A stretch of 64,000 nt of DNA from Siniperca chuatsi (Eukaryota; Chordata; Actinopteri; Centrarchiformes; Sinipercidae), in assembly GCF_020085105.1 (NCBI RefSeq), contig NC_058046.1, positions 29,813,175-29,877,174 of the forward strand. Direction: 5' to 3'. Shown here one piece after another: positions 171 to 52,274 of this stretch (its first letter is position 1; the number at the start of each line of letters is the position of its first letter). Below the pieces are notes generated by a model. The model saw only the letters and a program-made list of their open reading frames with translations, was not told where the DNA came from and searched no databases. The position numbers and the translations under genes are program-made.

Positions 171-171
<1 letters not shown>

Positions 172-212
<41 letters not shown>

Positions 213-229
213 GCATTATTATTGTGTAT
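172..229. repeat. (ATT)n microsatellite
   Basis: An ATT/TTA trinucleotide run with one interruption. The same tract in the second tandem copy (about 2822-2842) is much shorter, so it has changed length since the duplication. Confidence 0.9.
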
Positions 230-1530: not shown

Positions 1531-2652
1531 TTACAATTAACAAAGGACCAAATGACAATGTGTAATGTCAAGAGACATTGTAAGAGGTGCATTTCCAGTA
1601 TCAGCAGGCAGCTGTTTTCAGCAGAAAAGCTTTCATAAACCCACTGTACACTACAAGCTCAGCACCAAACAGCAGACAGACAAAATTAATGACTAGCTGG
1701 TGAACATAAAGGGGCATTGAGCAGCTAAAGAGCCACATATTTCCCTCAGGAGTTGGTGAAGACCAAAGGAGCTAAAAGGAGAGTGAATATTGGGCTTATA
1801 TTCCCCAGGTTGTCATAAACATGACTCCAATTGAATGCTAATGTTGCTCTAATGTGTCTACTATTTACTAACATGTCACAGGTCAGTGTTGTGTTTACAG
1901 CTTGTTCCACTTACCCAAGATGGCCAAAAAATGAATGCTGCTTTAAATGGTCAGTTCACAAAAACCTATTTTCCCCCTCGTGGTATCTAGCCGTGCAGAT
2001 CATTTTGTCTTTATTTGCAGTGGCCTTGAGATATCTGAGATTTCTGTCACCATCCTAATACAATGGAGGTAAATGGAATTTTGTTTGTGGTGCTCAAAGC
2101 ATAAAAAAAAAAAAATCAAATCTATCTGCAGATAACCCCAGGGCTAACTGAAAATATCTGTTGTCTCATCTGCCTGTCAGGTTATATTTAGAATGGGCTT
2201 GTCCCACTTGATTCCAGAAATGATGCAGCTGTCTGTAACTTTAACAGGAGCTGGATCAGATCTCTGGGGTTTATCCAAAGTTATCATGTTATTCTGGCTT
2301 TCATTCACAGTTAATTACACAATGATTGTGCCACTGTGTGTCAAAAGGATTTATCTAACAAGTTCTGAAGTGTGTTGGGTTTACATTGGACGCTATGAGA
2401 TACTGCATTTGGTGCTGAGCAGGCAGTGTACAGTGGGTTTATCAGAGCTTTTTTTACTGAAAACAGGTCCCTGCTGGGCTGGAAACAAAGTTTATGAGAG
2501 CGGTGAGAGTGAACTAAAACAGTAAAGTCCCGCAAGCCCATAAACCAAAACAATGAGCTGAAAGACACTAAAACACAGTGAGTGATAATTCTCTGCAGGT
2601 TCGTCATTTTGAGCGACTCCTTTCACATTAATCGCAGTCATTTGATTCATTG

Positions 2653-11494: not shown

Positions 11495-13434
11495 CTTCAC
11501 CTCTGCTCCCTGTAACCTCACCATTCCACCTGGGTCCCTCTCATTGACACACATGTATTCTGTCTTACTGCGGCTAAGCTTCATTCCTCTGTTTTCCAGA
11601 GCAGACCTCCATCTCTCTAGATTTTCCTCCACCTGCTCCCTGCTCTCACTACAAATCACAATGTCATCCGCAAACATCATAGTCCATGGAGATTCCTGTC
11701 TAACCTCATCTGTCAGCCTGTCCATCACCAGAGAAAACAAGAAGGGGCTCAGAGTTGATCCTTGATGCAGACCCACCTCCACCTTGAACTCCTCTGTCAC
11801 ACCTACAGCACACCTCATCACGGTCTTACAGCTCTCATACATGTCCTGCACCACTCTAACATACTTCTCTGCCACTCCAGACTTCCTCATACAATACCAC
11901 AGCTCCTCTCTCGGCACCCTGTCATACGCAATTGCCTTTCCACTCTTCATCCTCTTCCATGTCCTCCTCACTTCACTCTTGCTAATCTTTGCTACTTCCT
12001 GCTCCACACCAGTCACCTCTTCTACTCTTCGTTCATTTTCCTCATTCATCAACTCTTCAAAGTACTCCTTCCATCTTCCCATCACACTCCTGTCAATACA
12101 TTTCCATCCTTATCTTTAATCACCCTAACCTGCTGCACATCCTTCCCATCTCTATCTCTTTGTCTGGCCAACCTGTACAAATCCACCTCTCCCTCTTTAG
12201 TGTCCAACCTAGCATACAAGTCCTCATATGCTCTTTGTTTGGCCTTTGCCACCTCTACCTTCACCTTACGCTGCATCTCCCTGTACTCCTGTCTACTCTC
12301 TTCAGTCCTCTCAGTGTCCCACTTCTTCTTAGCTAACCTCTTTCTCTGTATACACTCCTGAAGTTCCTCGTTCCACCACCAAGTCTCCTTGTCCGCTTTC
12401 CTCTTTCCAGATGACACACTGAGTACCCTCCTACCTGTCTCCCTGATCACATTAGCTGTAGTGGTCCAGTCATCTGGGAGCACTTCCTGACCACCCAGAG
12501 TCTGTCTCAGCTCCTCCCTGAAAACTACACGACATTCTTCCTTTTTCAACTTCCACCACTTCGTCCTCTGCTCTGCCTTTGTCCTCTTCATCTTCCTCAC
12601 CACCAGAGTCATTTTACACACTACCATCCTGTGTTGTCTGGCTACACTCTCCCCTACCACTACTTTACAGTCACTGGTCTCTTTCAGATTACAACGTCTA
12701 CACAAGATGTAGTCCACCTGAGTGCTTCTACCTCCGCTCTTATATGTCACCCTATGTTCCTGCCTCTTCTGGAAGAAACTGTTCACTACAGCCATTTCCA
12801 TCCTCTTTGCAAAGTCTACCACCATCTGTCCTACGGCATTCCTGTCCTGAAGACCAAACCTGCCCATCACATTCTCATCACCTCTGTTCCCTTCACCTAC
12901 ATGCCCATTAAAATCTGCACCAATCACCACTCTCTCACCTCTGGGGATGCTCTGCATCACTTCATCTAACTCACTCCAGAATTTCTCCTTCTCTTCTAAC
13001 TCACATCCTACCTGTGGGGCATAACCACTCACAACATTGAACATCACCCCTTCAATTTCCAGCTTCAGACTCATCAACCTGTCTGATACTCTTTTCATCT
13101 CTAGAACATTCCTCACAAACTCCTCTTTCAGGATAACTCCTACTCTGTTTCTCTTCCTATCTGACCCATGGTAGAACAACTTGAACCCTGCTCCTAAGCT
13201 TCTAGTCTTGCTACCTTTCCACCTGGTCTCCTGGACACACAGTATGTCCACCTTCCTTCTCTGCATCATGTCAATCAACTCTCTAGCCTTCCCTGTCATA
13301 GTCCCAACATTCAAAGTCCCTACTGTCAGTCCTACATTCTTGGCTTTCCTCTTCTCTCTCTACCTTCGAACACACCTTCCTCCTCTCCTTCTTCGTCTTC
13401 GACCAACAGTAGTCCAATTTCTTCAACACAGCTT
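11495..13434 (-). mobile_element. RTE-type LINE, 5' segment (APE endonuclease and RT)
   Basis: The minus-strand frame 13314-12082 (410 aa) is an intact-looking APE-type endonuclease: MNVGTMTGKARELI at the start, then CVQETRWKG, GADFNGHVGEGN and the QVDYIL segment. Proteins of this kind are often auto-named craniofacial development protein 2-like in fish. RT follows in 12085-11500 with AYDRVPREELWYCMRK, GLHQGSTLSPFLF and catalytic FADDIVI at 11654-11674. The frame shifts between the two parts. The 3' remainder is at 8535-9170. The clade call RTE (Expander-like) rests on remembered family traits. Confidence 0.8.
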
Positions 13435-13910
13435 ATAATAACTAAATAATACTAAATAATGACTTTGTTATCCGCCTGAAGAAACAAAGTAGAAACGTAG
13501 CAGCTTGTGTTTGTGGTTTAATGTTAAGTAAAAACATGGAAATTGATAAAACAAGGAGTATTTTTATCCTGTGGTCACCATGAGTAACAAACGTTACTTT
13601 ACCAATCAATCGGTCAATTTGAGGCAACTACTTTTGTTCAAATGCTACTACTGGTGGGAAGAAAACCCTCTAAATAAATTCTCTAAGGCTAAGCACTTTC
13701 TGTAGTTGTTTGTTTGGGAGGGATACACTTCTGATTTTGGGGATCAATAACATTGAGGGCACCAAGGTCATGTCCGCCTGGATCTTAAAACCTTCCTGAT
13801 TTTATTTGTTTTATTGTTTTTTATTTGCTTGAAATTCTTTTATGATCTGCTTGTTATAGCTTGTTTGTAACATGGGTTTAGAAAAGTGCTTTATAAATAA
13901 AGATTATTAT
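12253..13910. repeat. 1,658-bp tandem duplication, copy 1
   Basis: The unit runs from inside the RTE ORF, across the RTE 5' end (13434), to the AT-rich tail of a neighbouring LINE fragment. Its first bases CTCTACCTTCACC recur at 13911, directly after AAAGATTATTAT. Both copies are in the same orientation and nearly identical. Confidence 0.9.
13665..13910 (+). mobile_element. 5'-truncated LINE 3' tail (first copy)
   Basis: This stretch has no coding frame and ends in GTGCTTTATAAATAAAG followed by ATT repeats, the usual form of a CR1/L2/Rex1-group LINE 3' end. It is repeated at about 15320-15566 by the tandem duplication, and the Rex3 element later inserted into that second AT-rich tail. Confidence 0.5.
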
Positions 13911-15566
13911 CTCTACCTTCACCTTACGCTGCATCTCCCTGTACTCCTGTCTACTCTCTTCAGTCCTCTCAGTGTCCCACTTCTTCTTAGCTAACCTCTT
14001 TCTCTGTATACACTCCTGAAGTTCCTCGTTCCACCACCAAGTCTCCTTGTCCGCTTTCCTCTTTCCAGATGACACACTGAGTACCCTCCTACCTGTCTCC
14101 CTGATCACATTAGCTGTAGTGGTCCAGTCATCTGGGAGCACTTCCTGACCACCCAGAGTCTGTCTCAGCTCCTCCTGAAAACTACACGACATTCTTCCTT
14201 TTTCAACTTCCACCACTTCGTCCCTCTGCTCTGCCTTTGTCCTCTTCATCTTCCTCACCACCAGAGTCATTTTACACACTACCATCCTGTGTTGTCTGGC
14301 TACACTCTCCCTACCACTACTTTACAGTCACTGGTCTCTTTCAGATTACAACGTCTACACAAGATGTAGTCCACCTGAGTGCTTCTACCTCCGCTCTTAT
14401 ATGTCACCCTATGTTCCTGCCTCTTCTGGAAGAAACTGTTCACTACAGCCATTTCCATCCTCTTTGCAAAGTCTACCACCATCTGTCCTACGGCATTCCT
14501 GTCCTGAAGACCAAACCTGCCCATCACATTCTCATCACCTCTGTTCCCTTCACCTACATGCCCATTAAAATCTGCACCAATCACCACTCTCTCACCTCTG
14601 GGGATGCTCTGCATCACTTCATCTAACTCACTCCAGAATTTCTCCTTCTCTTCTAACTCACATCCTACCTGTGGGGCATAACCCCTCACAACATTGAACA
14701 TCACCCCTTCAATTTCCAGCTTCAGACTCATCAACCTGTCTGATACTCTTTTCATCTCTAGAACATTCCTCACAAACTCCTCTTTCAGGATAACTCCTAC
14801 TCTGTTTCTCTTCCTATCAGACCCATGGTAGAACAACTTGAACCCTGCTCCTAAGCTTCTAGTCTTGCTACCTTTCCACCTGGTCTCCTGGACACACAGT
14901 ATGTCCACCTTCCTTCTCTGCATCATGTCAATCAACTCTCTAGCCTTCCCTGTCATAGTCCCAACATTCAAAGTCCCTACTGTCAGTCCTACATTCTTGG
15001 CTTTCCTCTTCTCTCTCTACCTTGAACACACCTTCCTCCTCTCCTTCTTCGTCTTGACCAACAGTAGTCCAATTTCTTCAACACAGCTTATAATAACTAA
15101 ATAATACTAATTAATGACTTTGTTATCCGCCTGAAGAAACAAAGTGGAAACGTAGCAGCTTGTGTTTGTGGTTTAATGTTAAGTAAAAACATGGAAATTG
15201 ATAAAACAAGGAGTATTTTTATCCTGAGGTCACCATGAGTAACAAACGTTACTTTACCAATCAATCGGTCAATTTGAGGCAACTACTTTTGTTCAACATG
15301 CTACTACTGGTGGGAAGAAAACCCTCTAAATAAATTCTCTAAGGCTAAGCACTTTCTGTAGTTGTTTGTTTGGGAGGGATACACTTCTGATTTTGGGGAT
15401 CAATAACATTGAGGGCACCAAGGTCATGTCCGCCTGGATCTTAAAACCTTCCTGGTTTTATTTGTTTTATTGTTTTTTATTTGCTTGAAATTCTTTTATG
15501 ATCTGCTTGTTATGGCTTGTTTGTAACATGGGTTTAGAAAAGTGCTTTATAAATAAAGATTATTAG
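13911..15566. repeat. 1,658-bp tandem duplication, copy 2 (with broken RTE ORF)
   Basis: Second copy of 12253-13910. It carries a decayed APE ORF on the minus strand, 14971-14300 and 14285-13878, which single-base losses have split (for example near 14170 and 14310) relative to copy 1, where the frame is continuous. The copy ends at AAGATTATTAG (15556-15566), the target duplication of the adjacent Rex3 insertion. Confidence 0.9.
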
Positions 15567-24002: not shown

Positions 24003-25876
24003 CTATACATTTGTGACTGGAATCCCATGTTCACCTAGGACAAATTTGCTTTGCCTTTTATTAATTAAACTTGTTGACAGGTATTTCCTGGGATGGACCA
24101 CAGATTGCAGGGTGTAATGTTCACTGCCTTTCTCGTCTACCTTCTCAAACCAGTGACTCTCATTGATAGCATCAGTGGCTAGAATGACATTATTGACAGT
24201 CATCTCCAACTGTGAACACACAAAACACAATGTTTGGTCATGTTTTGGGCCCATTTTTGGCAGAAAGAAGCAAGGAATGTGCACATTCAATATTATCAGT
24301 TTTTCAGTTACTTTTTCTTTAATTTGCCACCTATAATGAGCCCTTTCAAGTAACGTTGAACCTTGCAGAAATCAGCTGTGGTCAGAGATGGAGGCAGACG
24401 GGTGGCCAGGGTGGCCACACCTGAAAACTGAGTGGCCGTTTTTCTAAATGTTTTTAAATTGTCACAGGCTGTCAGCTTGCTTTCACAGCAGTTACAACAG
24501 AATCAAACAGTGAGGAGTTTTAATGGCATGGAAAACCTAATCAAAATGTCCATATCTAGATAGATATCCATTATATCCCAAACAATTTAATTGTTTACAT
24601 GAAATTATTGCTTAATAAAGTTGCATAGGTGCATATTTACTTTAACTGACTCTCCTGGTTTATTTAATAATGATATACTTTATGTTAGGGCCATCAGCTT
24701 TAATGATCTCAACTTTGTTTCCAAGAAATCCTGTTTTGTCTGTCAGTTTGCCATGGCAGACGGGTCTAAATACTACTACTAATACCCCTGAGCCTCGGCT
24801 GCCGTTACTATGGAGAAGAAGCTAGTCAAAGGCAAGTATCAGAGCAGTAGCAAGTTCAAAACAACAAAACAGGGCGCCATAATTGCTGAATTAATGGAAC
24901 ATTGAACACAGTTCAAAATAACTGAAAAAGGAAATTGATTAATAAGTAGCAGATTGTAAAATCAGTTTTAAACAGCACAATCTTAGTGGTGCACGTGACA
25001 GAATTTTAAGCTCAGTGATTGGATGATTCTTGCTAAAATTATCCTTGGGAGTCGTAGTTAACTTCTCCCCCAAAGTTTTTATGTACACAGGCTTGCACCT
25101 TCAACTTTTTATCAAAAAACCTGATATTTTCTAACACAGTTGTTCATCTTTTGTACTGATGATTTAACCAGGTGAGTTTCATGTTGAGCCATAGAACTGC
25201 TCCAACTGTGAGTCACCTAACATTGTCCATGGGAGAAAAAAAACTTTTGGAACCAGGTGTGCCCGAAAACAGTTCCTCCCATTTTGTAACTCTATACTGC
25301 TTCCACCTCAGTCCTTGCATGTAATCATGTTGGACTTGTGAGCAGATCTCTGCATTGTTATATATATATATATATACACAGATTATATACATACTGTACA
25401 TTCTGGATATTGCTATTTACCTGCACGGAGTCTTCATTCACCTTTGGTAAATAGTAACCATTTACATGATGGAATTGTAAAGCCATCTGGTTTCTCTCGT
25501 TCCTTACACGGGTGCATATTGTCACTGAAGGTGCTAAGGAAAGAAGCAAGACAACATATTTACTTTGTATCTGAGTCTATTAAACTTGTCATAGTAATCC
25601 TTAATCATTCAAAAATAGATCGCTGCAAAAAGTCCTATATAAAGACTTTGAATGGCACAATCAGAATGAGTGTAATACATAGATCAGTGGGGCATTAAAT
25701 TTGTCCCTTTGCAAAACAGTTAATCTGTTATTTTGAAATCTTTGTGGTCATTAGAAAAAAGTTGTACCCGTTTGAAAATCAACAGCACACAGTGTCATTG
25801 TCTCATCCAAATTCATGACTGTCACATATTTCCCTTCTTTGATCTTCAGAGCACATTGCTTGCTAGTGGGGGCCAT
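24003..25876 (-). CDS. IL-1-family cytokine, second member near il1b (candidate nIL-1F type)
   Basis: Three coding exons on the minus strand: 25876-25768, 25533-25421 and 24209-24003. They give about 142 aa (139 if the acceptor nine bases further in, 25524, is used). Exon junctions have phases 1 and 0, the same as the last two junctions of il1b. The protein starts MAPTSKQCALKI with no signal peptide and no pro-region. The last exon carries the IL-1-type segment HWFEKVDEKGSEHYTLQSVV then HPRKYLST, corresponding to FLFYKQDTG and [13 protein letters not shown] in il1b of this window. It would form most of a beta-trefoil that binds IL-1-family receptors, as agonist or antagonist. It ends at TAG (24003-24005) after GIPVTNV, which appears to cut off the last strand. 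The name nIL-1F/il1fma is inference from position and form. Confidence 0.72.
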
Positions 25877-25896
25877 GCTGTCTCCTTAGGGGCGTT
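25877..25896 (-). other. 5'UTR part of exon 2 of the IL-1-family gene
   Basis: A pyrimidine-rich tract ending CTTCTCATGTCAG precedes AACGCC and then the ATG at 25876. This acceptor would join the noncoding exon 1 that ends at 27210. Confidence 0.5.
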
Positions 25897-27209
25897 CTGA
25901 CATGAGAAGAAAGATAGAAAAACCTTTAATAAGTCAGAAACACAATCTGCAGTACTTAAAAAACTTCATAAACTCCAGTTTTTACATTGTACAAAAGTGT
26001 TCCATTTGAATAGTGGGAAAAAAACGTTTGTCTTCACACGTATCTCACTCTTTATTTGTAGTCTCAGCTGTTTATTACGTTTCAACTATGAAAACTCTGA
26101 ATGTTTTGGGGCTTGTGGTGAAACTTGAATGGTCACTTTGGATCACTACTTGTCAAGGCTCCCAACAACTTTGCTTGCAGCAGTGTGGAGTAGACCATTG
26201 TTTAAGCAGATCAAGTGGCTCAGTGAAGTTTTGGCACTCATTTTGGCATGAAAATGTGCTGCTCAGTACGACTCTCACCACAAATTCAAGCACAAAGAGT
26301 CATTTTTGCATGTACAGACCTCTCCAAATTCACAGCAAACCTTTCGTGTATTTTTCATTTTCATGTACTACCACTTTTCATTATGGATTAATCTGATGGT
26401 GATTATGGTGTTGTTCAATCAAGTTGTTTGTTTTGTAAAACATAAGAAAACGGTGAGAAAGATCTTCAAAGGTTTTCCGACTAACAGTCCAAACCGCAAA
26501 TGCTTTTCAATTTAGGACTAAAGATTCATTGACTAATAGTTTTAAGCTTGTTGTTGAGTAGTTTAGGTTTTTACAATGCATCATATTTTAAAAGTTATTT
26601 ATATGTTTTGAAAGTAAAATCTTAATTTGTTTAGTAACTATAGCTGTCAGATAAATGTAGAGGCGTAAAATGTACAATATTTCCCTCTAAAATGTAATAG
26701 GCCTATATACTGTAAGTATAAAATGTCATGAAATACTCAAGTAAAGTACAAGTATCTAAATTCCACCACTGCAATAACTAACAGGAGCCTTTGAGTACAT
26801 TTTGCTAATATACTTAAGATTTTTTATAAAGGACTTGAACTGCAATGCTGTATTTTAACATTGTGTGAAGGTTCGAATACATATTCCCTCACTGCAAAAC
26901 AGATTAGGAACACTGAGACGCATAGGAAAACAAAATAAAGTTAGGATACTTTTAATTTTAGCATTAACAAAGTGAAAATATTTAGATTAGATTAATTCAT
27001 TAATTAGATTCCTCACTAAAACTTCTCCTGCAGATGGGAATTATTACACCTATTATGCTACAGAATAAAGTGTGAGATGCATGCAGCTTGGCAATAAGTC
27101 GTGCATTAACTTTACCTCACTTTATTACACACACAATCTTAAAGACTGGTCAAAGGAAGAGTGATGCAGAGCTAATCTGCATGTTGGAAGTAATGCAATA
27201 GTCACTTAC

Positions 27210-27285
27210 CCTCAGCGATAAAGTCTTGTGAAGCTGGGAAGTCGAGCCTGTGGTTTACAGCAGAAAGCGTGTCGGTGTTTGCTTC
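27210..27285 (-). other. Putative noncoding exon 1 of the IL-1-family gene
   Basis: On the minus strand GCTGAGG is followed by a strong donor GTAAGTGAC (gt at 27209-27208). About 75-100 bp upstream of the donor lies a TATA-like TTTAAATAG (near 27310). The 1.3-kb intron to the acceptor at 25897 would match the il1b layout, where exon 1 is also noncoding. The transcription start is an estimate. Confidence 0.45.
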
Positions 27286-27299
27286 TCAGACTGCAGGGA

Positions 27300-28300
27300 C
27301 TGGAAACTATTTAAAGAGATGGATCTGCTCACTGACGCAGGCGCAGTCTGTGCCAGGAGGACACGACAGTGGGATGGACCGAAACATATTTCACAACACA
27401 AAATTAAGCCTGGGAAATCATCTGTCCCATGACGATGCAGAGAAATTGTGCTTATCTGAGAGTAACTGTATTTCTTTCTTTCCATTTTTTTGCATTTTAT
27501 TTTTACTGTAATTTTCGAGCCACGTCTTTATCTCTCCTCGTTGCAGCCTTGCTATACAGAACAAACCTGTTGTAAACTGATAAGGAGTCCAAAGTTTACA
27601 ATGCTGATTTAACCCTGAGTGGTTGCTGGGTATACAAAGCCAGGTCACTGACGCCTAAAAAGCAGGCGACATTTACATTAAATCTATGTTTATATTTAAT
27701 ATTCTCTATGGAATCAAAACGGAAAGAACAAATAATTAAAATAGAAATCACCATAATGTTGCAGCAAAGACTGGTGCAGCTCACGTAAGTATTTCAGGTG
27801 AACAACAGTCATAATTAGGGACTGTCAGAGCAAATGACGGAAGATTTGTCACTGTCAACAGACCGCAAAGAAATGCGCATTCCCTCGGCCGTCAACACAT
27901 GAGCAATGTATCTGTAAGAGTGATGTCTGAGGAATACTGTTCTTTAAATACAACACCAAAAAGGTTTAGAGTTATAGTTCCTTTCCGATGACCTGTTAAA
28001 CTGCATGCTGGACAGGTAGAATTTCAGGTGGATTATGATTGAAATGCCCCTTTAAATTGCCGAATTTACCGACAAAAAAAAGCTATTTGGCTTTAGGTTT
28101 TTCATGGAGAGAGGAAGCTGACTCACATCAGAATAATCATCTACCTCAAATTCCTCATCTGAAAAAGATGGAGGGGTAGCTACATTGGTTTGTGTTACGT
28201 GCTTCAAGTCACTTTATCAATATACCAACACTACCATATTTTCTCAACTTTGAATGAGTGCTTTGAGTGCCTAAACATTCATAAAAAAGTTTTACGTGCT
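27300..28300. other. Upstream region of the IL-1-family gene; no gene seen
   Basis: Short open frames only, none with a domain. The first 100 bp probably hold the promoter of the gene to the left. Confidence 0.4.
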
Positions 28301-28635: not shown

Positions 28636-29516
28636 AGCTGGACTGCGGGACTTTTACATGTAAATGAATGTAGATTTTATTCGAGCCCCTGAGTTCACAC
28701 AATGGTGATTAAGCCTGCACCGCCAGATAAATCTCTCTGTATTTCACAGTATATGGAGTTTTTAAATCTGGTGTCTGTGGCGACATTCCCGCTGGCGCAC
28801 TGGTAATGATGTGTTTTAACCAGCAATGACTGGTTTGAAAAAAAAAAAGTAAATTGGAGAAAATGATTATATTATTGAGCATTGTTTATTGTTTATTTTG
28901 TTTATTATGATTGTATAGTTTGTGTTAATATTTTTGGCAAGTAGTAGTGTATGCAGTCTGTCAATAAAGCCACTTGAATTGATATTGATCGGAGTTGACC
29001 AACTCTCCCTCTACATGGCTCTGGAGCAACCTAGTGACATTAGGCTACAGCATCTAGGAGTAAAACCTAAGAATCACCCAAGAAAAGTTTCAAATGCTCC
29101 AGAAAAACAAGAAACTCAGCATTCAGAAGAAGGATTACTGTCAAAACATGAAAGAGATGGACAAGGAGGACAAACACAGATAACCACTGGTGTAGCTTTA
29201 GCTTGTCCTTGATGGAGAGCGCTGTGAGAAGAGAAGGACTGAGGGCAGACACAGATGTGGCGTTACTGCTGTTGGACAGGTTGGTAAAATATTTGGAGTA
29301 GGCTATGTTGCTATTACATTTTCTCAACCTAAATAATGGATTATTGTCTTGGAACTGAGGATATTTATCTGTATTTTTGTAACTATTTCTGAACAGGAGC
29401 CTGGGGCGAGCTCACCTGTAGGCATACATTATTAGCAAGCATCAACAGTGTTCATGTAATTACTTTTAGTGCCAGAAGGGGGAGACAAACGTTCCGCACT
29501 GCTGCTTTAAACATCT
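28636..29516. mobile_element. Nonautonomous DNA transposon with TTAA target duplication
   Basis: The ends are AGCTGGACTGCGGGAC and, reverse-complemented, AGCAGCAGTGCGGAAC, an imperfect terminal inverted repeat. TTAA flanks both ends (28632-28635 and 29517-29520), and the other duplicate has a single TTAA at 41093-41096 with nothing inserted. A TTAA target suits the Kolobok or piggyBac superfamilies. No transposase is readable inside. Confidence 0.75.
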
Positions 29517-29758
29517 ACAGCAGTAAAATGCAACACACACATTAATGCAGCAGTAATATTAATCCAGAAACATCATATGTAATAGTAAAACACTGACAGG
29601 GACCATTTGTTCCCCAGGGACACACAATGCATTTTGGTGAGTAACACTGAATGTAAGCATAACTTCTGTTTGTTTACACAAAAACTCCATAGGCATCTTT
29701 AGGAACTGTGCAAAACTCTGTCTAAATGTCTAAAGTTTGAATATCATGGATGTCTTAC

Positions 29759-30662
29759 CTCCAACACAACACCAACAGCCTCTTCAAACATGGGCAGGAC
29801 ATCCAGGTTGCCCTCCTGCTCCATCAGGCGGGCCTGACAGATCCAGTATTTGGCAAACTTCTGGGACACTGCCGGCAGCCGTGAGAGAACCTCCTTCACC
29901 TGATTTGGAGGGCAACCCTGCGGGTGTGAGGCAGGCTCACATCAAACTCAAACACTGAAAGACAGGGCATCAGTATGCTCCACCCAAAGTGCTTATCGTA
30001 TGGTCAAACAGCATCTGAAACCCCTCACCTCACATCTCTCCGACGATATCGATCATTTCTCTAACTTTCCTAATCCGACACTTACACCCTTATCACACAG
30101 TGATTGGCCAGGTGTGTGGAAAAAACAAAGTAAGCAGGGTTTGAACTTCTCTCTGAAGCTCTCTTTTTCATTCTGTTCACAGCTATTTTGGTCACTTTTC
30201 GTGTGAACAAACAGGTGCAACACTATGAATGCCTTCCAAGAGAGACTGTAAAAGTGGGCATAGTTAAACGATTATCATGTCTCACCCCTCTGTATAATGG
30301 CAGGCCTCTTGTCAGCCTTCAAGTTTGGCCATTCGGAGCAGTCAAAAACTAGTTCTTTTCGAGTATACCCCGCCTAAAATGGGTTTAACTTATTATCTCA
30401 TTCCCACATAATGTCTATACAGTGAGGGATTACATCACAAAACAAATCTCTCACTCCATGACATACCTCTCCAAGCAATTTGATGCAATCAGCCAGGGAT
30501 CTGTCCACAGCACAGATGAGGGAATGGGCCTCGTCTTCCTCCTTCATGGTAGCCCAGAAAGGCTGGGGCACGGCCACAGTGCGCCTGACCTGAGGTTTCA
30601 CCGGCATTGGAGGACGTTTGTAGGAAATGCCCTTGGCTTCCCGCCATTCCTGTAGTATTCTC
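29759..30662 (-). pseudogene. Duplicated ckap2l exons 5 and 6, non-functional copy
   Basis: Minus strand: 30662-30467 copies exon 5 (ILQEWREAKGISYKRPPMPV ... DCIKLLGE) and 29917-29759 copies exon 6 (GCPPNQVKEVLSRLPAVSQK ... VGVVLE). Both donors and the exon 6 acceptor are kept, but the AG acceptor of exon 5 has become AA at 30664-30663. The next AG, one base in, would shift the frame. No other ckap2l exon is present here and no promoter is seen, so I call it a partial pseudogene. Confidence 0.85.
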
Positions 30663-30746
30663 TTTGAGACCAAATGATAGAGCAGATGGTGCAGTTAAAA
30701 GTCAACCTTTTATTTGAGTTAGTTTTGGGGGGTTTTGGACATTATT

Positions 30747-30860
30747 ATTATATTTTGATTTGCTTAGAACTTCTATTCCTGTGTGCACTGACGTGATAGT
30801 GAGCAGCTGTAACAAAAGAGTTTCCCCTCGGGGATCAATAAAGTATTTCTGATTCTGATT
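30747..30860 (+). mobile_element. L2-type LINE 3' tail insertion (114 bp)
   Basis: It ends GGGGATCAATAAAGTATTTC then TGATTCTGATT, identical in plan to the tail of the L2-type LINE at 9171-9240. The other duplicate (near 42605-42620) reads straight through CATTATTAGACAG, so it shows the empty site. Confidence 0.85.
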
Positions 30861-31181
30861 AGACAGCACAGCAGAGTGGAATGGCATAGATCCTAGGACA
30901 AACTGGGGATGACACCTTCAACATTGTATTCTGGACGCCCAAAACTCGATTGGTTGATAATTAGAGGGACAGACCAAACCTCTAGGAAAATCATCTCCTT
31001 GTTGCACATTTTGATGGCACTTTAGACGTCCGAGTCTGAGTATGCTTTTATCTTGTACTTAACAATTTTATTGTCCTAATTAGCAAACAAAATAGCATAT
31101 AGGGGTGTGAGAGGAGATTTGAGTATTGTAAATACACTTAATATTTTGCATATTGAGGTGGATCATTAATATTTTTGAGTG

Positions 31182-39205: not shown

Positions 39206-42200
39206 CTAAACGCCTTCATCGTAGACTAGCTGGACGAACACCTTGTCGTTAAGTGCTTCGTTCTGTCTGTAGACGTACATCAGCGTGTTGTTAGCAAACG
39301 GGCTGGTTTCCCCACCCTTCTGCTCTTCACTTCTCTCGTTATCCTCCTCGAAGATCAGGTCATTGTAAGAGGCCACACAGAGATCATGGTCCTGGAGGGA
39401 CGCAGGGTATCGGAGTGAGGCTCTCTCGATACGCACTGAGCGTCTAACTGGGGTGAAGAAGCGAACCTCCTGGCCGTTGACCCGTGCTGGTTCCTTCTGT
39501 TGGCTTGGAGGGCCACTGAAGGAAAAGAAAGATTAATATATTAATACATGCCGACCAAGTCTGGTTGGAACTATTTTGGACTATTTTGACATTGTTAACC
39601 AATAGTCCAACCATGTTACCATAATAAATGGGTCAATCCTATCATCTAACAAAACTCTACCATGCAGATGACATAAAACTACAAAATGTAAACTATGTTT
39701 TAAATAATGTTACAGATTTAAGCTTAAAGATATTGATCTATAACTGCAGGTTGACAGTTAACATTCAGGACACAGAAATTGTAGACAAAGTCACTACAGA
39801 CGCTTTATGCGAACACTTTATGCATGCAGATAGATCAAATGTTGATGGATCAACTGATAGATAGCTTTGAACAGAGCAAATAAACCACTTTAAGAAGCTG
39901 TGATAGTAAAAGAATTACCAGGTTCATTCAGGTTTTTCTTCAGCTCATACTAACAAATGTGTTTACTCCACTCAACAGAGCAGAAACATTTATAACAAAC
40001 TGGCTAGCATGAAAAACGTTAAATATATAGTTTCTGGAAGTTGTAATAATGGTTAAACATACCCAGGAGTTGCTGTAATCTTGTACTTGACTACAGATGA
40101 GTCTCCTTTCTCCCCACAGATGAGGGCTCTGACAGGTTTAGGGGTCATCATTGGGTTGTTAATGCCCTCAGGAGCGCTTTCAGCTATTGGAATTTGGTCC
40201 TCCTCTTTGTCGTTTTCTTCGACAAAAACATGAAAACCTGAGTTATCTCATGAAATGGGACAAACTTGTTAGCAAACAGTGGCTTATTTACATATTTAGC
40301 AAATACAGGGCAACATTAACAATCATATGGAGTCGTGTTTCTTTGTCTGACTGCCATTTTTTCTAACAATTTAACACTATTGTAAATTCTGTGGTAAGGG
40401 TTTATGTGATTGACTGCGTTTCAAGTCAAGGCAAATAAAATGACTTCAAGATATGCAACAGAATAAGGCCATGTTCAATACTGATTAGAAACTGTGCAAT
40501 GTAGGCACTGCAATAACAGTTAGTTTATGCTATGAGTAATCTTAATGGTATAAAACCACTGTGGTTACAAACAAAGCATGCAGGCCAACTACCTTGGATC
40601 TCGTCCTTTTTCTTCAGAATCTCAAACACCACAGTCCGCAGCTCGTCCACTGGCTAGAATAAAATAGAAGGGCAGAAACTTAACAGGACCATAGAAAATA
40701 ATTTATTAATTTTAGACTACAACATAACTTAAACAATGAGTGTGTTGAGGCAATATTATATAGTGCGCTGTGGATTCTGATCACATACCAACAAATTAAG
40801 CTGTAAGGGATAGTATAAATCCTCAGGATCATTTTTTATATTAAAACTGCTTTTTTTTTTGGTTCTACAGACACAGACACATGGAAATGCTGACTACATG
40901 GGCTCTGAGTAGAGCTAGGGGATAGCTATGCCACAATATACAAAATATATCTCGATATAAAATATAAAATATATTTCTCTTAAATAACATACCGTAAATT
41001 CTCACCATATGATGATCTTAAAAAATATAATGCGTGGCTGTATATTAAACTACCCAACAAAAGTATATAAAGTAGTTAAAATTAGCTCAACCTTAAACAT
41101 CTACAGCAGAAAATGCCACACACACATTAATGCAGCAGTAATATTAATCCAGAAACATCATATGTAATAGTAAAACACTGACAGGGACCATTTTACTGCA
41201 CAATGAGTACTTTAACTATAAAACTTACATACCTTTACTTTAGTAAGGTTTAGAATGCAGAACTTTTACTTGTAGTGGATTATTTTCACAGTGCGGTTTG
41301 TAGTACTTTTGCTTAAGTAATGGACCTGAATAGTTCTGCAACCTGTGGTTAGCACACCTACAGCATTACTGCACCTGTGTGTTACCGGCCGAGCCTTCCC
41401 CTTTAAGGAAGGTGCCTCGCTCACTGCTCGCTGATTTGCAAAATCACCCACAACAGCCCCAATCAGAGTCCTCTAATTAAATGTTCCCCAGGGACACACA
41501 ATGCATTTTGGTGAGTAACACTGAATGTAAGCATAACTTGTTTACACGAAAACTCCATAGGCATCTTTAGGAACTGTGCAAAACTCTGTCTAAATGTCTA
41601 AAGTTTGAATATCATGGATGTCTTACCTCCAACACAACACCAACAGCCTCTTCAAACATGGGCAGGACATCCAGGTTGCCCTCCTGCTCCATCAGGCGGG
41701 CCTGACAGATCCAGTATTTGGCAAACTTCTGGGACACTGCCGGCAGCCGTGAGAGAACCTCCTTCACCTGATTTGGAGGGCAACCCTGCGGGTGTGAGGC
41801 AGGCTCACATCAAACTCAAACACTGAAAGACAGGGCATCAGTATGCTCCACCCAAAGTGCTTATCGTATGGTCAAACAGCATCTGAAACCCCCTCACCTC
41901 ACATCTCTCCGACGATATCGATCATTTCTCTAACTTTCCTAATCCGACACTTACACCCTTATCACACAGTGATTGGCCAGGTGTGTGGAAAAAACAAAGT
42001 AAGCAGGGTTTGAACTTCTCTCTGAAGCTCTCTTTTTCATTCTGTTCACAGCTATTTTGGTCACTTTTCGTGTGAACAAACAGGTGCAACACTATGAATG
42101 CCTTCCAAGAGAGACTGTAAAAGTGGGCATAGTTAAACGATTATCATGTCTCACCCCTCTGTATAATGGCAGGCCTCTTGTCAGCCTTCAAGTTTGGCCA

Positions 42201-45200
42201 TTCGGAGCAGTCAAAAACTAGTTCTTTTCGAGTATACCCCGCCTAAAATGGGTTTAACTTATTATCTCATTCCCACATAATGTCTATACAGTGAGGGATT
42301 ACATCACAAAACAAATCCCTCACTCCATGACATACCTCTCCAAGCAATTTGATGCAATCAGCCAGGGATCTGTCCACAGCACAGATGAGGGAATGGGCCT
42401 CGTCTTCCTCCTTCATGGTAGCCCAGAAAGGCTGGGGCACGGCCACAGTGCGCCTGACCTGAGGTTTCACCGGCATTGGAGGACGTTTGTAGGAAATGCC
42501 CTTGGCTTCCCGCCATTCCTGAAGTTTTCTCCTTGAGACCAAATGATAGAGCAGATGGTGCAGTTAAAAGTCAACCTTTTATTTGAGTTTGTTTTGGGTT
42601 TTTTGGACATTATTAGACAGCACAGCAGAGTGGAATGGCATAGATCCCAGGACAAACTGGGGTTTATACTTTCAACATTGTATTCTGGACGCCCAAAACT
42701 CAATTGGTTGATTTTATTGTCCTAATTAGCAAACAAAATAGCATATAGGGATGTGAGAGGAGATTCGAGTATTGTAAATATGCTGAACATTTTGCATATT
42801 GATGTGGATCATTAATATTTTTGAGTGCCCCTGTTTCTTAATGCATGTGCCCTGATTTTTTAATTTACTGCCCCATTTGCTGCTGTTCATTTTTGTCTGA
42901 CAAGCTGCCGGATTGCTGGTGTATCTGTGTTCACATGGATCCATAGATCCGGCTAATGTTTGTGCATCTTCATCTCCATCAATCAAATCAGAATTATCAC
43001 TAGCTCAGATTGGGTAGGGGGCACAAACAAATTCATTGGGACATCTCTAATAATGAGAATCTTCCAATACAGATTCCCAATTTGATATTCAGATTTTCCT
43101 GCAGCTGTACAGAGATACTTAACCCAAAGTACTGACACATAAAAAGTATGACTGACAGCCCAACTGAAGCACTGTTAGCAAAATATATCCTGAATTTCCT
43201 GTTTTCAGAATTTCCAATAATGAGAAGCCCTCTGTCACAGCAATCTTAGGTATAAATTGTGTGTGAAACCAGTCCCAGTCCACCCACACAGATTTAATCA
43301 CCATCAACCAGTGTGATATTGGACTAAGAAAGCATAGTCTGTACATGCCTAGAGATCTAATCAAACATTTTATCTTTTCCAAAACTTGCAAGTGAATGCT
43401 CGGTCAGATTCCATGTCTTGTCTTCATATTCTTTCATTAGATATTTCTTGCTCAAAATCAGCAGACTATATTATTTCGCTCTTGTTTGGTCTACAAAAGA
43501 CTTTTGAAGAAATATTGTTATTACATTCCTCAAAAAAATAATTGTTTTGGTATCATTACCGAAACTCAGGTATCATATTGGCACCAATATAGTAAAAGTC
43601 AAACAATGCCCAGCCCTATATACTGTAAACATAAGCAAAATTTATCAATAAAAAATAGACATAGACATACATATCACAATATGGCTATTGTTTTCAAAAT
43701 CACATTCAAACAAACAAAACAAAACAAACAAACAAACTGATGTAAGCAATGAACTATGTGGCACACTATGTATTACTTAAGAAAAAACTTGATGTTAGTT
43801 AGCTAATTTCTAATTATCGGTTACTCAGGGTCATTAATTTGGATAAGAGAAACGTGTAGAACAATATGCTAACATCTTATCATTGACATATGATTAGGTC
43901 AAGCTACTAAATTGTCACCTAGCTCTAAAAGCAACTTTCCTTGTGAGTCACATACAGAAATATCTCAGATATTACAGTTCTTCTGCAGCAAGCAAGTGCC
44001 AAAGTCAAGAGGCAAACTCTAACCCACGGTCAACTATAGTGGATGCTGGAAATGTAATGATTCAATGGTGCCATATCAGTGTTTCATGCTATACATTTAC
44101 TGTTCTACTCACATTCTTTCCACCTGGGCAGCAGTCAGTTTCTCTCCCTCAGTCTGGGGAATGACCCTGACTGGGACCTTTGGCGTCTTCATGTCTGCAG
44201 CCTGGCCTGTATGGCTGATGGTCCTGGCCGGCCGCGGCACTGTCTGTGACATCACTGGAGCGCCTGCTCTTTTTATACCTGTTTTTGGTGGAGGGGCATT
44301 TGCTGAACTGTGTCCCTTCTTGCTATCTGTCACTTTACATGTCTTGGTTTTCCCTCCCAGCTCAGCCACAGCAGCTCGTATAACCCCGCTGACTGCTTTG
44401 GAACTGCACCCGCTCACTGGCCCTGAGGATGTTCGGGAGGCTACTTTGCATGGCTGGCCATTTTTCTCCCCCTTAGATCTCTGCTTCGTGGATTTGTCTG
44501 TGGGCTGGCCAGCTGATTTATTAGTTTTTGACATCCCTACTCTCCCCTTTGGCTTAATAGGTGCTGCTGTGCACTTGGAAGAGCTGGACATTGATTTCAG
44601 TCCACTTGATGATTGACTCTTACAAGATGGCTGAGAATGTTTACCCAAAAGTGGGTTAGAGTTAGATTTGTTCTGATCTTGAACTTTAATCCCAGCTCTT
44701 GCAGCCGAAGAAACTGTTGTTTTCTTATTAACAGGGTTGTTTAGAGCAGTGGTAGGTAATGTTTTCTTCTGAGCCATGGCAGACCTCTGAGAAACAGAGA
44801 CTGATGATGAGGTGCTGGATCGCACAGAAGTGGTGGTAGTGGTATCAGCTGCTGTGGCAGAGGTGTGTGTTAAGTTTTGACTTTGACTGTTTCTTGGCTG
44901 AGTCACTGCAGGAATGAGGCCTGTTTTTGTTTTGACAATGGGACCAAGACTCATCCTGACACTGACTGTCTTTATTGGACATGACCAGGCAGCATTTGAG
45001 TTACTGCTGAATCTGCTGTTTGATTTTGTTACAGCTGTACAAGCTGCATTTGAAGAGGCTCTGCCTGAAGATTGTATTCCTGTGTTTGGCTGCTTTTTGA
45101 GGTGGCTGGCTGAATTCAGGTTTGCTTTGGAGGACACAATGGTGTATGTTCTTGTAAGCACAGGGTTCTGGTCAAGTTTTGGCTGTGCCGGGCCACTGGT

Positions 45201-47661
45201 TGCAGATGGACAATTGGCATCCAGCCGTCCAGTCAGGATGATGCCTTTTACATTAACTTTGTTAGTGACCCCAAATGTTCTTCTGGCAGGGTGTTTTGTG
45301 GATTGAGCAGCCAGAGTCGGAAACTTTGTGCGTACATATCTGAATCTGTCAGATGGAGCCTTGTTCTCTTTTCCCTTAACAACCTGTAAAAACAAAAAGA
45401 TAAATTGGTTCCATACATCTGAATCTTAATCTGAATCGCATCAGCTTACTTTGGTGATTAAAAAGTAGAGAAACAAAATGGCAGTTCAGTCTGATTATCA
45501 GGCCAACTCAGCACCACACCAAGTTAACGCTGACATAATTCTTTTGAAATCCATTTGTTTTTTTATGCTCCATTGCTAGTGCAAAAAAAGGTTCACACAC
45601 ACACACCTTAACTGTAGGTGTCTCCGGCTTCTTAACCTGACTGTCATCACGGAGGTACGGCCTGAGAAGTAAAATTTAGTAAATTAATTTACCTTAGATA
45701 TAATAAACAACAACATTGACACGCTATTTTTGAGCTGTCAAGGAAAGAATTGTTTTTCTTACTTAGGGTTGGTCGGTTTCAGTTTTCCTTTGGCTGCCAG
45801 GTATTCCATCAACTTCTGTTTACGCAGCTCTGTGACAGAAAACAACAGGAATTCAGCACTGGTCCCATGGTTTCCGACTGCAGCTGGTCTTAGCAACAAG
45901 GCCCGGGAGCGCCACTGAGACAAACTCTTATCCCGCCCCAAGGACACTACATGTTACATTAACATAAAGTCTCCATGTCTAACTTGACACGCTATATTAA
46001 TGCAAATCTTCATTGCACATTTTCTTTATATTCCCTGGTCAATATTGTGGACATTCCATCCTCTTGCATTTTAAAACACATATGTTACACTTTTTTTTTT
46101 ACTGTAAATTTCTAAATTAAAGATTCTTGACTTCAGTACTTGTTTCTTTTCTCTTACTATGTTTATTGTGATCGTTATGCACCAAAATACCAACTGTAAA
46201 TTGCATATTAAAGATTCATACTTAGTATACGAACTAAAATCATTTAGGCTTAAAGGCTTATTATCCAGCCACATATTGTAGCTGTTAATAAATGTGTCTG
46301 TGTACATATATTCAGTGTAAATGCAGAACTCAATTACATTAAAGATTTGGAACCTCTCTTTAGGTTAACTTTGGGGAAAATAAAAAAAATTCACAACATC
46401 ATTTACCAATACAGTATCTTTATTACAGCCAACACTTGAACTACAGTTCAGTTCCTTTTACTGGATGCCGCAAAAAGAAAAAGCTAATGAGCTCAAAAGG
46501 TTTTCTAAGTCAATGGTCTATTAAACTATGAGCAACAGAATAGAGGTGATATTTTTTTCATCCAGCTGTTACAGCAGCAGTTGACTTGAGTCACCTTAAC
46601 TGACAATTAACTTTCACCAACCATCCAGAATAAGACCTCTAGCTCCCACAGAAACTTACTGCCATCTGGCTGCGGGTTGGTGATACATTTATACTCTTGT
46701 GGAAAATCTAAATTTGGAAAAGGGACAGCATACTAGAGCTAATCTTAAATGATTGGTCGATTAATTGATCAATAGACAATTAATCTGCAACAACTTTGAT
46801 AACTGATTAATCATTTAAATAATTATTCAACCAAAACAAAAACAGCCAAAAATTCACTGGTTCCAGCTTCTGAAATGTGAACGTTTGCTTTATTTCTTTG
46901 TCTAATATGATTTTTTAAAAAAAGATTTACATCTTTGAGTTTTGGACTCTAACTCTCAGTTTTCTGACCGTTTACAGACTAAACAATTAATATAGAAAAT
47001 GATGGGCAGAATAATCAATGATAAAAATAATTATTTGCATTCTTATTGCATACAGCTAATTTTGCACTCTGTTAACCACTATTTTCAATTAAATTCAATT
47101 AAACTGGGCTTTATTGGCTAGGGAATCAGAAGTTAACATTGCCAAAGAATGTGTACAATAAAAACATACATAAAAATCAGAATTGATATTAAAATACATA
47201 CAGATAAATAAGATGGTTTAATAATAATAATAATAATGATAATAATAATAATAAATATATATATATATATATAAAACAATAACTAAATCGAGCTCTGTTC
47301 TGTATTTGTATGGGAAGCCTACTAACTAATCTATGTTGAATATTCAACATTTTAGGTATAAGAAAAGCACATACTAGCACTATGTTAACGTTAAACACTC
47401 AAACTTCAACAGGACTAATGTAATGCCTCTTCGTGATGGTCTGTCTGACACAAATATATCTCAACCAAACCAGTACCATAACGTAAATTTATTTAGCTAA
47501 CGTTTCCTCGCTGTTACCAACATGTAGCTAACGTTTGCTATCTAGCGTTAACATGGTTTAGCTAACCAATGGTAACAAACTAACTTGGCTAGCTTTTGTG
47601 CAACTTAACAAGCTCGCTAACCTTTTCTGGAAAGTATCGATACGGTCTCGCCTTCTTCCAT
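39206..47661 (-). CDS. ckap2l: Cytoskeleton-associated protein 2-like (CKAP2L/Radmis)
   Basis: Nine coding exons on the minus strand: 47661-47622, 45829-45763, 45661-45607, 45383-44113, 42531-42336, 41785-41627, 40653-40593, 40216-40063 and 39515-39206. All splice in phase with GT/AG and give 770 aa. The N-terminus has the family motif ELRKQKLMEYLAAKGKLK, then PYL. A KEN box (KEN, residues 59-61) follows. The long exon 4 is basic, Ser/Thr-rich and probably disordered. The C-terminal CKAP2 domain (about residues 478-770) has LQEWREAKGISYKRPPMPV, SQKFAKYWICQARL, FFTPVRRSVRIERAS and MYVYRQNEALND. In mammals the protein binds mitotic spindle and midbody microtubules and is destroyed by APC/C. il1b lies 1.7 kb upstream on the same strand, as in human. 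Confidence 0.93.
40968..42829. repeat. Segmental duplication, copy B (in place within ckap2l)
   Basis: Contains ckap2l exons 5 and 6 and introns, and matches 28510-31181. It shows uninterrupted sites where copy A has an 881-bp element (TTAA at 41093-41096) and an L2 tail (near 42615). It retains about 290 bp (41192-41482) missing from A. Confidence 0.9.
41110..41345. repeat. Fish 'CAGTGGTGGAA' family repeat fragment in ckap2l intron
   Basis: Words AACACTGACAGGGACCATTT, GCAGAACTTTTACTTGTAGT and GTACTTTTGCTTAAGTAA match the 3' part of the element at 58225-58720. Copy A of the duplication has lost the second half. Confidence 0.6.
46740..47060. repeat. Degenerate dispersed repeat in ckap2l intron 1
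   Basis: Words TCGATTAATTGATC, CAATTAATCTGCAACAAC, CCAGCTTCTGAAATGTGAA and ATAATCAATGATAAAAATAA match the very common fish element with inverted CGATTAATCG-type ends. Superfamily unknown to me. Confidence 0.5.
47222..47272. repeat. (AAT)n/(AT)n tract
   Basis: ATA trinucleotides followed by AT dinucleotides, in ckap2l intron 1. Confidence 0.9.
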
Positions 47662-49749: not shown

Positions 49750-52274
49750 TTAGGATGCCCTTGGCAGGTTTGAACTCTGATGCTGGATGTTGAAGGTTCG
49801 GTGGCGTTGGGCAGTCTCCAGGCACATTTCCACCGGCTTGTTGTTATCGACTGCTGTGCTTATGTACCAGTCACGGAAGGCGACAGACACGAGGGTGCTG
49901 ATGTTCACCCCGGTGTCCTGTTTGTAGAAGAGAAATCGCACCATGTCGCTGTCCGAGCGGATACTCAACAGACTGTTTTTGTCCTCCACGGCCTGAGGTG
50001 TGAAAAGACAAATGTCAGAAGGTTAAACTATCACACTTGACAAAATTTCTGGCTCAAAGGTAAATTAATATATAAATGTGCAGTGTCTCTTTCAGATGAT
50101 AACAATTTAGATGACCAGGTAGCTCTAATCAGTTTTCCCTGGCCACTGTTCCGGCTTTGAGAAATGTGGCATATGGGATTAAGTTTACCCTTTAACAGTA
50201 GGCCTACTACAAAGTGTATAATCTTTATGTGAGAATCATGAGTCATGAGTTTTACCTCCAGATGCAAGGTTGCTTCGGGACCATCCTTGTGGCAAGACAG
50301 GTAGAGATTTGTGCCCCTGATGCCCAGAGCCACAGTTCTGGCCTCAGCGCTGGGTGCAGGATGGATGTAGGTCGACATGTTCAGGTAAACTGAGGAGAGA
50401 ACAGAGGATACAGATTCATTTTAATGAAAGCTGAAAGACTATGTCAGCCTCTGTGATGAGGCAAATGCTACTTTGTGTGCATTTTACTAAAGGCACATCT
50501 GAATTTGGACTAAGACAAGATCAAACCGGTTTGACTTGGAAGTTATTATGATATATGACGGTGTAGTCCCTCATTCGTCCAGGAGTGTTCTATCGTAGAA
50601 AAGGTTTCAGTCGTAGTCATCTGGACACTGTTTTCAGAATCAAGACGTTTGGCTCCCATCCGGAAGTCATTCACAATTGAGAATGACTTCCGGATGGGAG
50701 CCAAACGTCTTGATTCTGAAAACAGTGTCCAGATGACTACGACTGAAACCTTTCTACGATTATGATATATGCATTTGAGGTTAAAATTTGTATCTAATAT
50801 CATAAAATCCAGAAGTTACACTGCTGCAGTGAAGGTAACTAAGCCCATTTACTCAAGTACTGTACTTAAGTACAAATTTGAGGTACCTGTTTTTCATTTT
50901 CTGCAACTTTATACTTCTATTCCACTACATTTAAAAGGGAAACATTACACTTCTTACTCCAATACCTTTATTTGACAGCTATAGTTACTAGTTACTTTAA
51001 TTCATTAAGATTTTACATAAAAAATCAGATAATGTAAAATACAGCACTTTGTTAAATGTTAAACCAGTGGTTCTCAGGCTTTTGGCTTGTGACCTCAGTC
51101 CAGTGTTAAATTGAGATATTAGTGTTTGGATTATGTTACTGGGTATTTTCCATCCTGCAAAGGATGTAGTACTGGAGGAAACACTGAATTTTGGGGACAT
51201 TTTTGGTGTAAAAATTGTTATAAAATATCACCTTTAAACAGCTTTATATAAAATATCAAGCCAACAGTTGCCAGATGAACTAAAACAAACCCATCTTCTC
51301 TAAATTCAAATATCTACCATGACCCAGAGAATGATTTTCTAACCATCCGATCTAACTGTCACATGCAAGTACCTTTGGAGTTTTCAGCGCCTCCCTGCAG
51401 CATCATTGCGTGGAGCTCCATGCTGTTTTGGACCAGAACTAAGCTCCTCTTCTTGCTGTCAGTCACGCTGCACTGGTACTCATCCGTCCTCCTGAACTGA
51501 AGCGGTGGAGCTGAACCGCGCTCAAACACAGTTTGCTCTGAGGGGAAAAGAGGCACACCCGATTAGTTATGTTGTTGTTATGATTTGTATCTTCCTTCAT
51601 CGGAAAGCAGCAGGAATTGCAACAACAGCCATAGACCTTAGCCATAGTCTCTACCTGCACAAGTGAGTCTTGAAAGCCAGCTTCATTGCAGATACACATT
51701 ATATCATACATTTTAGTTTATGGAACAGTAAAAGTCATGCCAATGGCCCTTTAAACAAACTATAAATACAGATACACACATCAGTTATGGTAGATAAACT
51801 CAATGCAGTAATTAAAAACATAAAGATAGGCCAACAAGATCATATACTGTAAGTCACTTCCCACAGTTCCTTAAGGAGGACTTGAGGAGGATGACAGTAT
51901 TTTTGTTTTTATACAGATTTAATAGCTTTTTAGAAGTGTGGGTAATGCTGAGTTAAAAAGAGATACAACTCTATTAAAAATGTTATGCTAACAGAGAAAA
52001 CAGTCCAGTAAGTGGTTTTGATGGGATAGTGTTGAAATAAAGTCTGGTCTGTGTGATTACCTTCCACTATGCTCTCCATCATGAAGTTGAGCAGGTTTTC
52101 ATCTGTGCACTTGGTGCTCCGCACTGACCCGCTGCCCTTCAACCTCTCCATGGCGACGATGAGGTTGACCACACTCCTCATTGTCAGTGGGTGATGTGTA
52201 ATCTCCAAGTCCAGTCCCTTGGGCATCTTGAGGCTCCACATCTCGCTCATGTTGCATTTCATCTCGGATTCCAT
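49750..52274 (-). CDS. il1b: Interleukin-1 beta precursor
   Basis: Four coding exons on the minus strand: 52274-52061, 51537-51373, 50389-50256 and 49992-49750. All junctions are GT/AG with phases 1, 1 and 0 and give 251 aa. The start [13 protein letters not shown] and the pro-region [20 protein letters not shown] are typical of fish IL-1 beta. There is no signal peptide. The beta-trefoil part follows from about residue 90, with [17 protein letters not shown] in exon 4 and the IL-1 signature [15 protein letters not shown] in exon 5. No obvious mammalian-type caspase-1 site is visible, as is usual in fish. It is the pro-inflammatory cytokine made in activated macrophages and acts through IL-1 receptor 1. 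The neighbour is ckap2l. Confidence 0.96.
50592..50760. repeat. Near-perfect palindrome in il1b intron
   Basis: Arms 50592-50672 and 50681-50760 are reverse complements over about 80 bp, with one extra A in the left arm and an eight-base loop. The core words are GACTTCCGGATGGGAGCC and CAGTCGTAGTCATCTGGAC. It lies between coding exons 2 and 3 (exon 3 ends 51373; next exon starts 50389), so it is transcribed and would fold into a long hairpin. Confidence 0.95.
50826..51060 (+). repeat. Fish 'CAGTGGTGGAA' family element, 5' part, in il1b intron
   Basis: Words ACTCAAGTACTGTACTTAAG, TACTTCTATTCCACTACAT and TTTGACAGCTATAGTTACT match the 5' half of the family represented at 58225-58720. Confidence 0.65.

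Follow-up and report, generated by a model that had tools for sequence, protein, structure and literature searches.

A compact candidate gene of the interleukin-1 ligand family beyond ckap2l at the il1b locus of Siniperca chuatsi

A stretch of 64,000 nucleotides from Siniperca chuatsi (NCBI RefSeq assembly GCF_020085105.1, contig NC_058046.1, positions 29,813,175 to 29,877,174 of the forward strand), hereafter the window, contains the interleukin-1 (IL-1) ligand gene il1b, the gene ckap2l and a four-exon candidate gene that is the subject of this report; all three lie on the same strand, with ckap2l between the other two (Table 1). The il1b gene, of type II, encodes 251 amino acids with intron phases 1, 1 and 0; its product is 99% identical to Siniperca chuatsi IL-1b, matches the Pfam IL1 family at 2.9e-14 and gives a sub-threshold match to the IL-1 propeptide. 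Published fish type II il1b loci include CKAP2L (PMC7144542), and CKAP2L is reported to tether the IL-1b loci of most vertebrates examined (PMC4090809; the tethering is also reported in PMC5861070). A sequence-only reading had proposed the candidate as a second member of the IL-1 family about 24 kb from il1b; the measured distance is 22.5 kb. On balance, the candidate appears to be a real, unannotated and strongly diverged gene of the IL-1 ligand family. Its descent from that family is the more probable case; as a working gene it is no more than a candidate.

All exon borders given by the sequence-only reading proved exact, every intron is GT-AG, and the coding exons join in phase (coding intron phases 1 and 0) into a frame of 142 codons that stays open to the stop codon, for a protein of 142 amino acids. 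The start codon has A at -3 and G at +4. An alternative acceptor for exon 3 at 25524, 9 nt further on, shortens that exon by 9 nt and gives a form of 139 amino acids in which the intron-split codon encodes valine, as in il1b. The absence of a signal peptide and of a pro-region, also claimed, was borne out: the N-terminus has no hydrophobic leader, and only about seven residues precede the first strand in the alignment, so that there is no pro-region to remove. Splice sites were scored with a simple matrix and were ranked against control DNA. Relative to 24,088 control GT sites, the donors of exons 1, 2 and 3 rank in the top 0.24%, 17% and 0.9%; relative to 26,048 control AG sites, the acceptors rank in the top 1.1%, 0.75% and 4.7%. 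The first exon, proposed as noncoding, has a GT-AG border, and its 5′ end was guessed from the position of the TATA-like box.

Table 1. Coordinates of the candidate gene and its neighbours (position 1 is the first letter of the window).
Feature	Position	Strand	Remarks
TATA-like box CTCTTTAAATAG	27307..27318	minus	22-33 bases upstream of the proposed transcription start; sequence reading
Candidate exon 1, proposed noncoding	27210..27285	minus	donor GAGG/GTAAGT (/ = exon border); 5′ end guessed from the TATA-like box
Candidate exon 2	25768..25896	minus	start codon ATG 25876; predicted first third of the trefoil; phase 1 at its end
Candidate exon 3	25421..25533	minus	predicted middle third of the trefoil; entered in phase 1, left in phase 0
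Candidate exon 4	24003..24209	minus	predicted last third of the trefoil, with LQSVVHPRKYLSTS; stop TAG 24005-24003
il1b	49750..52274	minus	coding exons 52274-52061, 51537-51373, 50389-50256, 49992-49750
ckap2l	39209..45425	minus	open frames 45425-44112, 42563-42270, 39532-39209; named by protein recognition and published synteny rather than by a database match

The resemblance to IL-1 ligands was measured with home-made profiles. Against a profile of 12 trefoils (10 human sequences, chicken and the il1b of the window), the candidate scores 7.5 bits (E = 1.6e-4 for one test; 2 of 2000 shuffles as good), and human IL-33, a true member that had been left out of this profile, scores 8.3 bits. With a profile of 119 fish IL-1b trefoils, the score of the candidate is 10.3 bits (E = 2.1e-5 for one test; equalled by 1 of 2000 shuffles); on the same scale human IL-18 and IL-33 reach 2.3 and 0.5 bits, and eight other human members at least 28 bits. 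The fish and 12-row sets combined give 12.4 bits, again equalled by 1 of 2000 shuffles. The 139-amino-acid form scores slightly above the longer one in three of the four profiles, at 13.1 bits with the combined profile, where none of 5000 of its own shuffles reached either 12.4 or 13.1 bits. A 23-row alignment gave 18 family positions that are invariant or nearly so, and the candidate is identical at nine of them, a count found in none of 1000 shuffles and in one of 1792 rows counted as controls, presumably chicken IL-1b drawn in among them by the prefix of its name; unrelated rows are mostly left unaligned in this comparison.

The inner IL-1 signature S[ASLV]xxPxx[FYLIV][LI][SCA]T occurs once, as LQSVVHPRKYLSTS of the candidate, in the 527,916 residues of the six-frame translation of the window and controls. 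The full signature (the PROSITE pattern) fails in the candidate at its first and last positions, and the il1b of the window fails it too; a version of the pattern is quoted in PMC7144542. In an hmmalign alignment of the core, 21 of 28 aligned columns are hydrophobic in the candidate, matched by none of 1791 controls and none of 1000 shuffles, but the count was given no weight because hmmalign leaves unrelated sequences mostly unaligned. A weak match to DUF7910 was obtained for the candidate (E = 0.028) and for human IL-1Ra (0.041); it may be an echo of a shared fold and was not used as evidence. A tree of 30 rows placed the candidate on a long branch (6.96) among the human and chicken rows, with the fish IL-1b rows split up, and was uninformative. 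The assignment to the IL-1 family made by the sequence-only reading is supported, at the modest strength that home-made profiles afford, by fish IL-1b profiles, exon phases and locus, but not by Pfam PF00340.

Because the exons of the candidate had been picked by an earlier reader, all possible chains were scored. These were defined as an ATG-GT, an AG-GT and an AG-stop exon with phases 1 and 0 and within length limits, on both strands of the window and of 20 control stretches of 10 kb (200 kb), excluding chains that overlap il1b. Among 1,309,165 chains, the candidate ranks 11th by its splice sites together with the acceptor of the 5′ untranslated region (UTR), 4th by splice sites and family score, and 1st when splice sites, 5′ UTR acceptor and family score are combined; it is the only chain with both a splice sum of at least 12.4 and a family sum of at least 7.5. 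Full-length profiles were then applied to the joined proteins of 103,718 chains, made up of the highest scorers by parts, chains whose splice sites were good and a set drawn at random. Control DNA supplied 54,991 of these chains, none of which reached the 12.4 bits of the candidate with the fish-plus-family profile, the best scoring 10.2. With the fish-rich profile, exon 4 taken alone scores 11.8 bits and ranks 4th among 1866 unique terminal exons, the three above it presumably being nested versions of il1b; with the 12-row profile it ranks 9th. Exon 2 ranks 31st and 33rd of 2630 unique exons of its type with the 12-row and fish-rich profiles, respectively. Most of the IL-1 signal is contributed by the terminal exon and none by the middle one.

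In a final test, 951 of 1,307,993 three-exon chains cleared a first score and were rescored with a joint measure of splice signals, including the 5′ UTR acceptor, and IL-1 similarity. The candidate came first with 30.6; the best real control locus reached 22.0, reversed DNA 24.3, and 12 Markov-randomised sets between 12.9 and 21.9. The null sets are smaller than the real DNA (567,512 chains in reversed DNA and approximately 228,000-321,000 in each randomised set), and therefore the margin of the candidate is somewhat flattered. The joint DNA signal is above chance; as a rough guess, a chance origin in this neighbourhood would amount to a few percent or less before the missing relatives are counted.

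Several results weigh against this interpretation, beginning with those missing relatives. In a database of approximately 5.8 billion proteins, the length range of 78-248 amino acids yielded six candidates sharing words with the query, none at E ≤ 1, and the range of about 216-688 amino acids yielded 31, none at E ≤ 10. The candidate is approximately 20% identical to il1b and cannot easily be young; orthologs would therefore be expected in other perches. Pfam IL1 (PF00340) gave no match to the joined protein at E ≤ 10 with the HMMER filters on; the sequence-only reading had named the lack of an IL-1 profile match as one of two results that would refute it, and taken literally that is the outcome. 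A search of the PDB returned only an unrelated match (E = 0.28), BLASTP of the candidate against the il1b of the window returned nothing, and hhalign gave a probability of 1.8% (P = 0.027; 26% identity over 115 columns), in an alignment much like those of the home-made profiles. With the fish rows removed, an 11-row profile scores the candidate at 4.8 bits, equalled by 17 of 2000 shuffles. On single measures the candidate is not exceptional: 172 chains reach its sum over the four coding splice sites and 326 its 12-row family sum, and it is equalled by three of the 54,991 control chains with the fish-only profile and by 43 with the 12-row profile. Exon 3 alone stands at random level (ranks 4098 and 3443 of 7926 with the 12-row and fish-rich profiles), the donor of exon 2 is the weak one, and the last strand is short. 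The coding statistics are only mildly favourable. Set against at most 20,000 random control chains, the candidate falls in the top 7% by a Fickett-type position sum and in the top 4% by an RNY measure; the G+C content is 41-43% in its exons and 35% in its introns, but an exon value this high is found in 73% of random control chains.

Fish are well represented in this protein database: il1b has 203 matches there at E ≤ 0.001, and all the named entries of the 120 listed come from fish. Very distant relatives would escape the search, since it requires shared five-residue words. The search would have recovered an identical Siniperca protein annotated at these lengths, provided that the annotated proteome of Siniperca is in the database. 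Either orthologs are unannotated, too diverged or lost, or the candidate is no working gene. A paralogue search of the species' own genome returned only the three exons of the candidate, which is weak evidence as to distant paralogues because the Pfam IL1 search there (E ≤ 0.001) missed the il1b of the window; that search listed a single exon, on contig C18. This IL-1b-like terminal exon (..RFLFFKRSKGKSCFTFESVKCRGWYISTYEG..; L001, G000:C18:3011031-3014204, match 1501-1674) probably belongs to a type I il1b paralogue. NCBIfam yielded nothing IL-1-like for the joined protein, viral contigs gave nine pattern matches and no relative of the candidate, and a codon-usage likelihood did not favour the correct frame of the candidate, nor that of il1b. 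Among the matches listed in the open-licence literature, outside which subscription papers mostly fall, there was no paper on a compact second fish IL-1 gene beside ckap2l, and the available portions of PMC9382457, PMC5861070 and PMC12108812 do not mention one.

Among the closest known ligands is teleost IL-1b, with which the candidate shares the phases 1 and 0 of the last two introns, the order of trefoil motifs and the ckap2l locus. In alignments the candidate reaches up to 27-28% identity with single fish IL-1b sequences and 17-21% with the neighbouring il1b, from which it differs in having no pro-region, no Pfam match and a short last strand. The sequence-only reading had likened its coding introns to those of il1b; their phases agree, but with QLE as the common anchor the second one is placed two codons ahead of its il1b counterpart. 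The mammalian antagonists IL-1Ra and IL-36Ra are similarly trefoil-sized and have no long pro-region, yet are only 13-17% identical to the candidate, and secreted IL-1Ra has a signal peptide that the candidate does not. Mammalian IL-1a also adjoins CKAP2L and is made as a long precursor; it is 12-14% identical overall, and SVAHPNLFIAT of the human sequence resembles SVVHPRKYLST of the candidate, a likeness that carries no claim of orthology.

The results that weigh against the candidate are what would be expected if three open stretches that have nothing to do with one another, but whose splice signals are good, happened to look like an IL-1 trefoil once joined with il1b in mind, there being no gene at all. 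The lack of any resembling protein in the database, the silence of Pfam and the PDB, the random score of the middle exon, the low hhalign probability, the 43 control chains and the joint score attained by reversed DNA all fit such an accident. It is nevertheless unlikely: on the joint measure the candidate is first among some 1.3 million chains and exceeds the reversed DNA as well as each of the 12 randomised sets, its score climbs as fish IL-1b rows enter the profile (4.8 without them, 10.3 with fish only and 12.4 with both), and its locus and intron phases suit an IL-1 gene. Less likely still is a relic, a former IL-1 family gene that has lost expression or function and whose frames remain open through recency of the loss or by chance. 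An IL-1-like signal in exons 2 and 4 and not in exon 3, a shortened C-terminus that does not have the usual phenylalanine of the last strand, and the absence of the protein from the databases searched would all accord with decay, but no stop interrupts any of the three frames, the splice borders show no damage, the start codon has a favourable context and there is a TATA-like box.

Two further alternatives accept the gene and dispute what it is. The candidate might be an agonist, an IL-36-like ligand without a pro-region, which we rate about as improbable as a relic; the claim of a gene is common to this reading and to the preferred one. IL-36 cytokines have no long pro-region, which counts for an agonist, as does the segment between β4 and β5, which in the 142-amino-acid form has 16 residues and is closer to IL-1b (18-19) than to IL-1Ra (12). 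The lack of a signal peptide is also shared with IL-36 cytokines as they are described in PMC6596353. Against an agonist, the β11/12 region is very short and does not have the T-D-F stretch of IL-1a and IL-1b. The sequence-only reading had also suggested the novel fish ligand nIL-1F, an identity that is very improbable. PMC4929537 does describe nIL-1F as an antagonist-like fish IL-1 ligand, but published nIL-1F has a pro-domain, and in PMC7144542 lumpfish nIL-1F has 352 amino acids and seven coding exons, and nIL-1F synteny, identical across the species compared, occupies a panel separate from that of the il1b locus. The candidate, with three coding exons, 139-142 amino acids and no pro-region, is set apart by these published descriptions and is therefore not nIL-1F as described.

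If the preferred reading of a real, diverged IL-1 ligand gene is correct, the three coding exons would encode a single predicted β-trefoil that, if translated, would be produced directly at mature size with no need of caspase cleavage. The protein may leave the cell by an unconventional route or upon damage, as leaderless IL-1 ligands do, and may act on an IL-1-type receptor. The direction of that action is bound up with the β4/5 and β11/12 loops, which determine agonist versus antagonist action of IL-1 ligands according to PMC6596353. The stretch between the split codon and the VALG-like strand measures 13 residues in the 139-amino-acid form of the candidate and 16 in the 142-amino-acid form; it measures 19 in il1b, 18 in its human counterpart and 12 in IL-1Ra, some of the human borders being placed by alignment. 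Downstream of the β11-like FVLGEHG only IPVTNV is left; in the alignments the T-D/K-F stretch is absent and nothing aligns with the F238 column, such that β11/12 is very short. The short β4/5 and β11/12 segments tip the balance somewhat from agonist towards antagonist. On the preferred view the protein would antagonise the receptor or otherwise hold il1b in check, the β11/12 region that helps to recruit the co-receptor being reduced to a few residues and the β4/5 segment being shorter than that of il1b. Given a working gene, this role is judged plausible at somewhat less than an even chance, and the antagonist-like ligand mentioned in the sequence-only reading is a possible outcome; a truncated barrel unable to fold is also possible.

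According to a review (PMC4929537), the IL-1 ligands of fish are IL-1b, IL-18 and nIL-1F, and orthologues of other mammalian members are lacking. In its most far-reaching form, the proposal would be that of a fourth kind of fish IL-1 ligand: old, fast-evolving, without a leader or pro-region, situated in the il1b/ckap2l locus, antagonising IL-1b locally in a form already fit for action, and separate in origin from both mammalian IL-1Ra and nIL-1F. Such a gene would have been overlooked by annotation because no standard profile detects it. This form of the proposal is doubtful and offered tentatively. If true, a fourth ligand beside il1b would alter the view of inflammation control in fishes, and would suggest that current annotation overlooks fast-evolving short cytokines.

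The remaining features of the window concern its repeats. Downstream of ckap2l lies a second copy of its 3′ part (29507-31181 versus 41093-42827, in pieces that are 94-98.6% identical), and the duplication includes an intact exon frame (30401-30694 and 42270-42563). An origin of the candidate as a recent duplicate of il1b by way of this event was considered and rejected, as the copy at 29507-31181 stops short of the candidate. A short dispersed repeat is common to the first intron of the candidate (26632-26696), an intron of il1b (50926-50990) and a third site (58308-58362). An intron of il1b also contains, at 50600-50753, a 77-nt inverted repeat with arms that are 99% complementary and no spacer. 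Positions 1-4938 and 12253-15565 hold tandem direct repeats, of 2.3 kb (97%) in the first case and 1.66 kb (99.2%) in the second, the latter inside a stretch of frames recognised as reverse-transcriptase-like and endonuclease-like.

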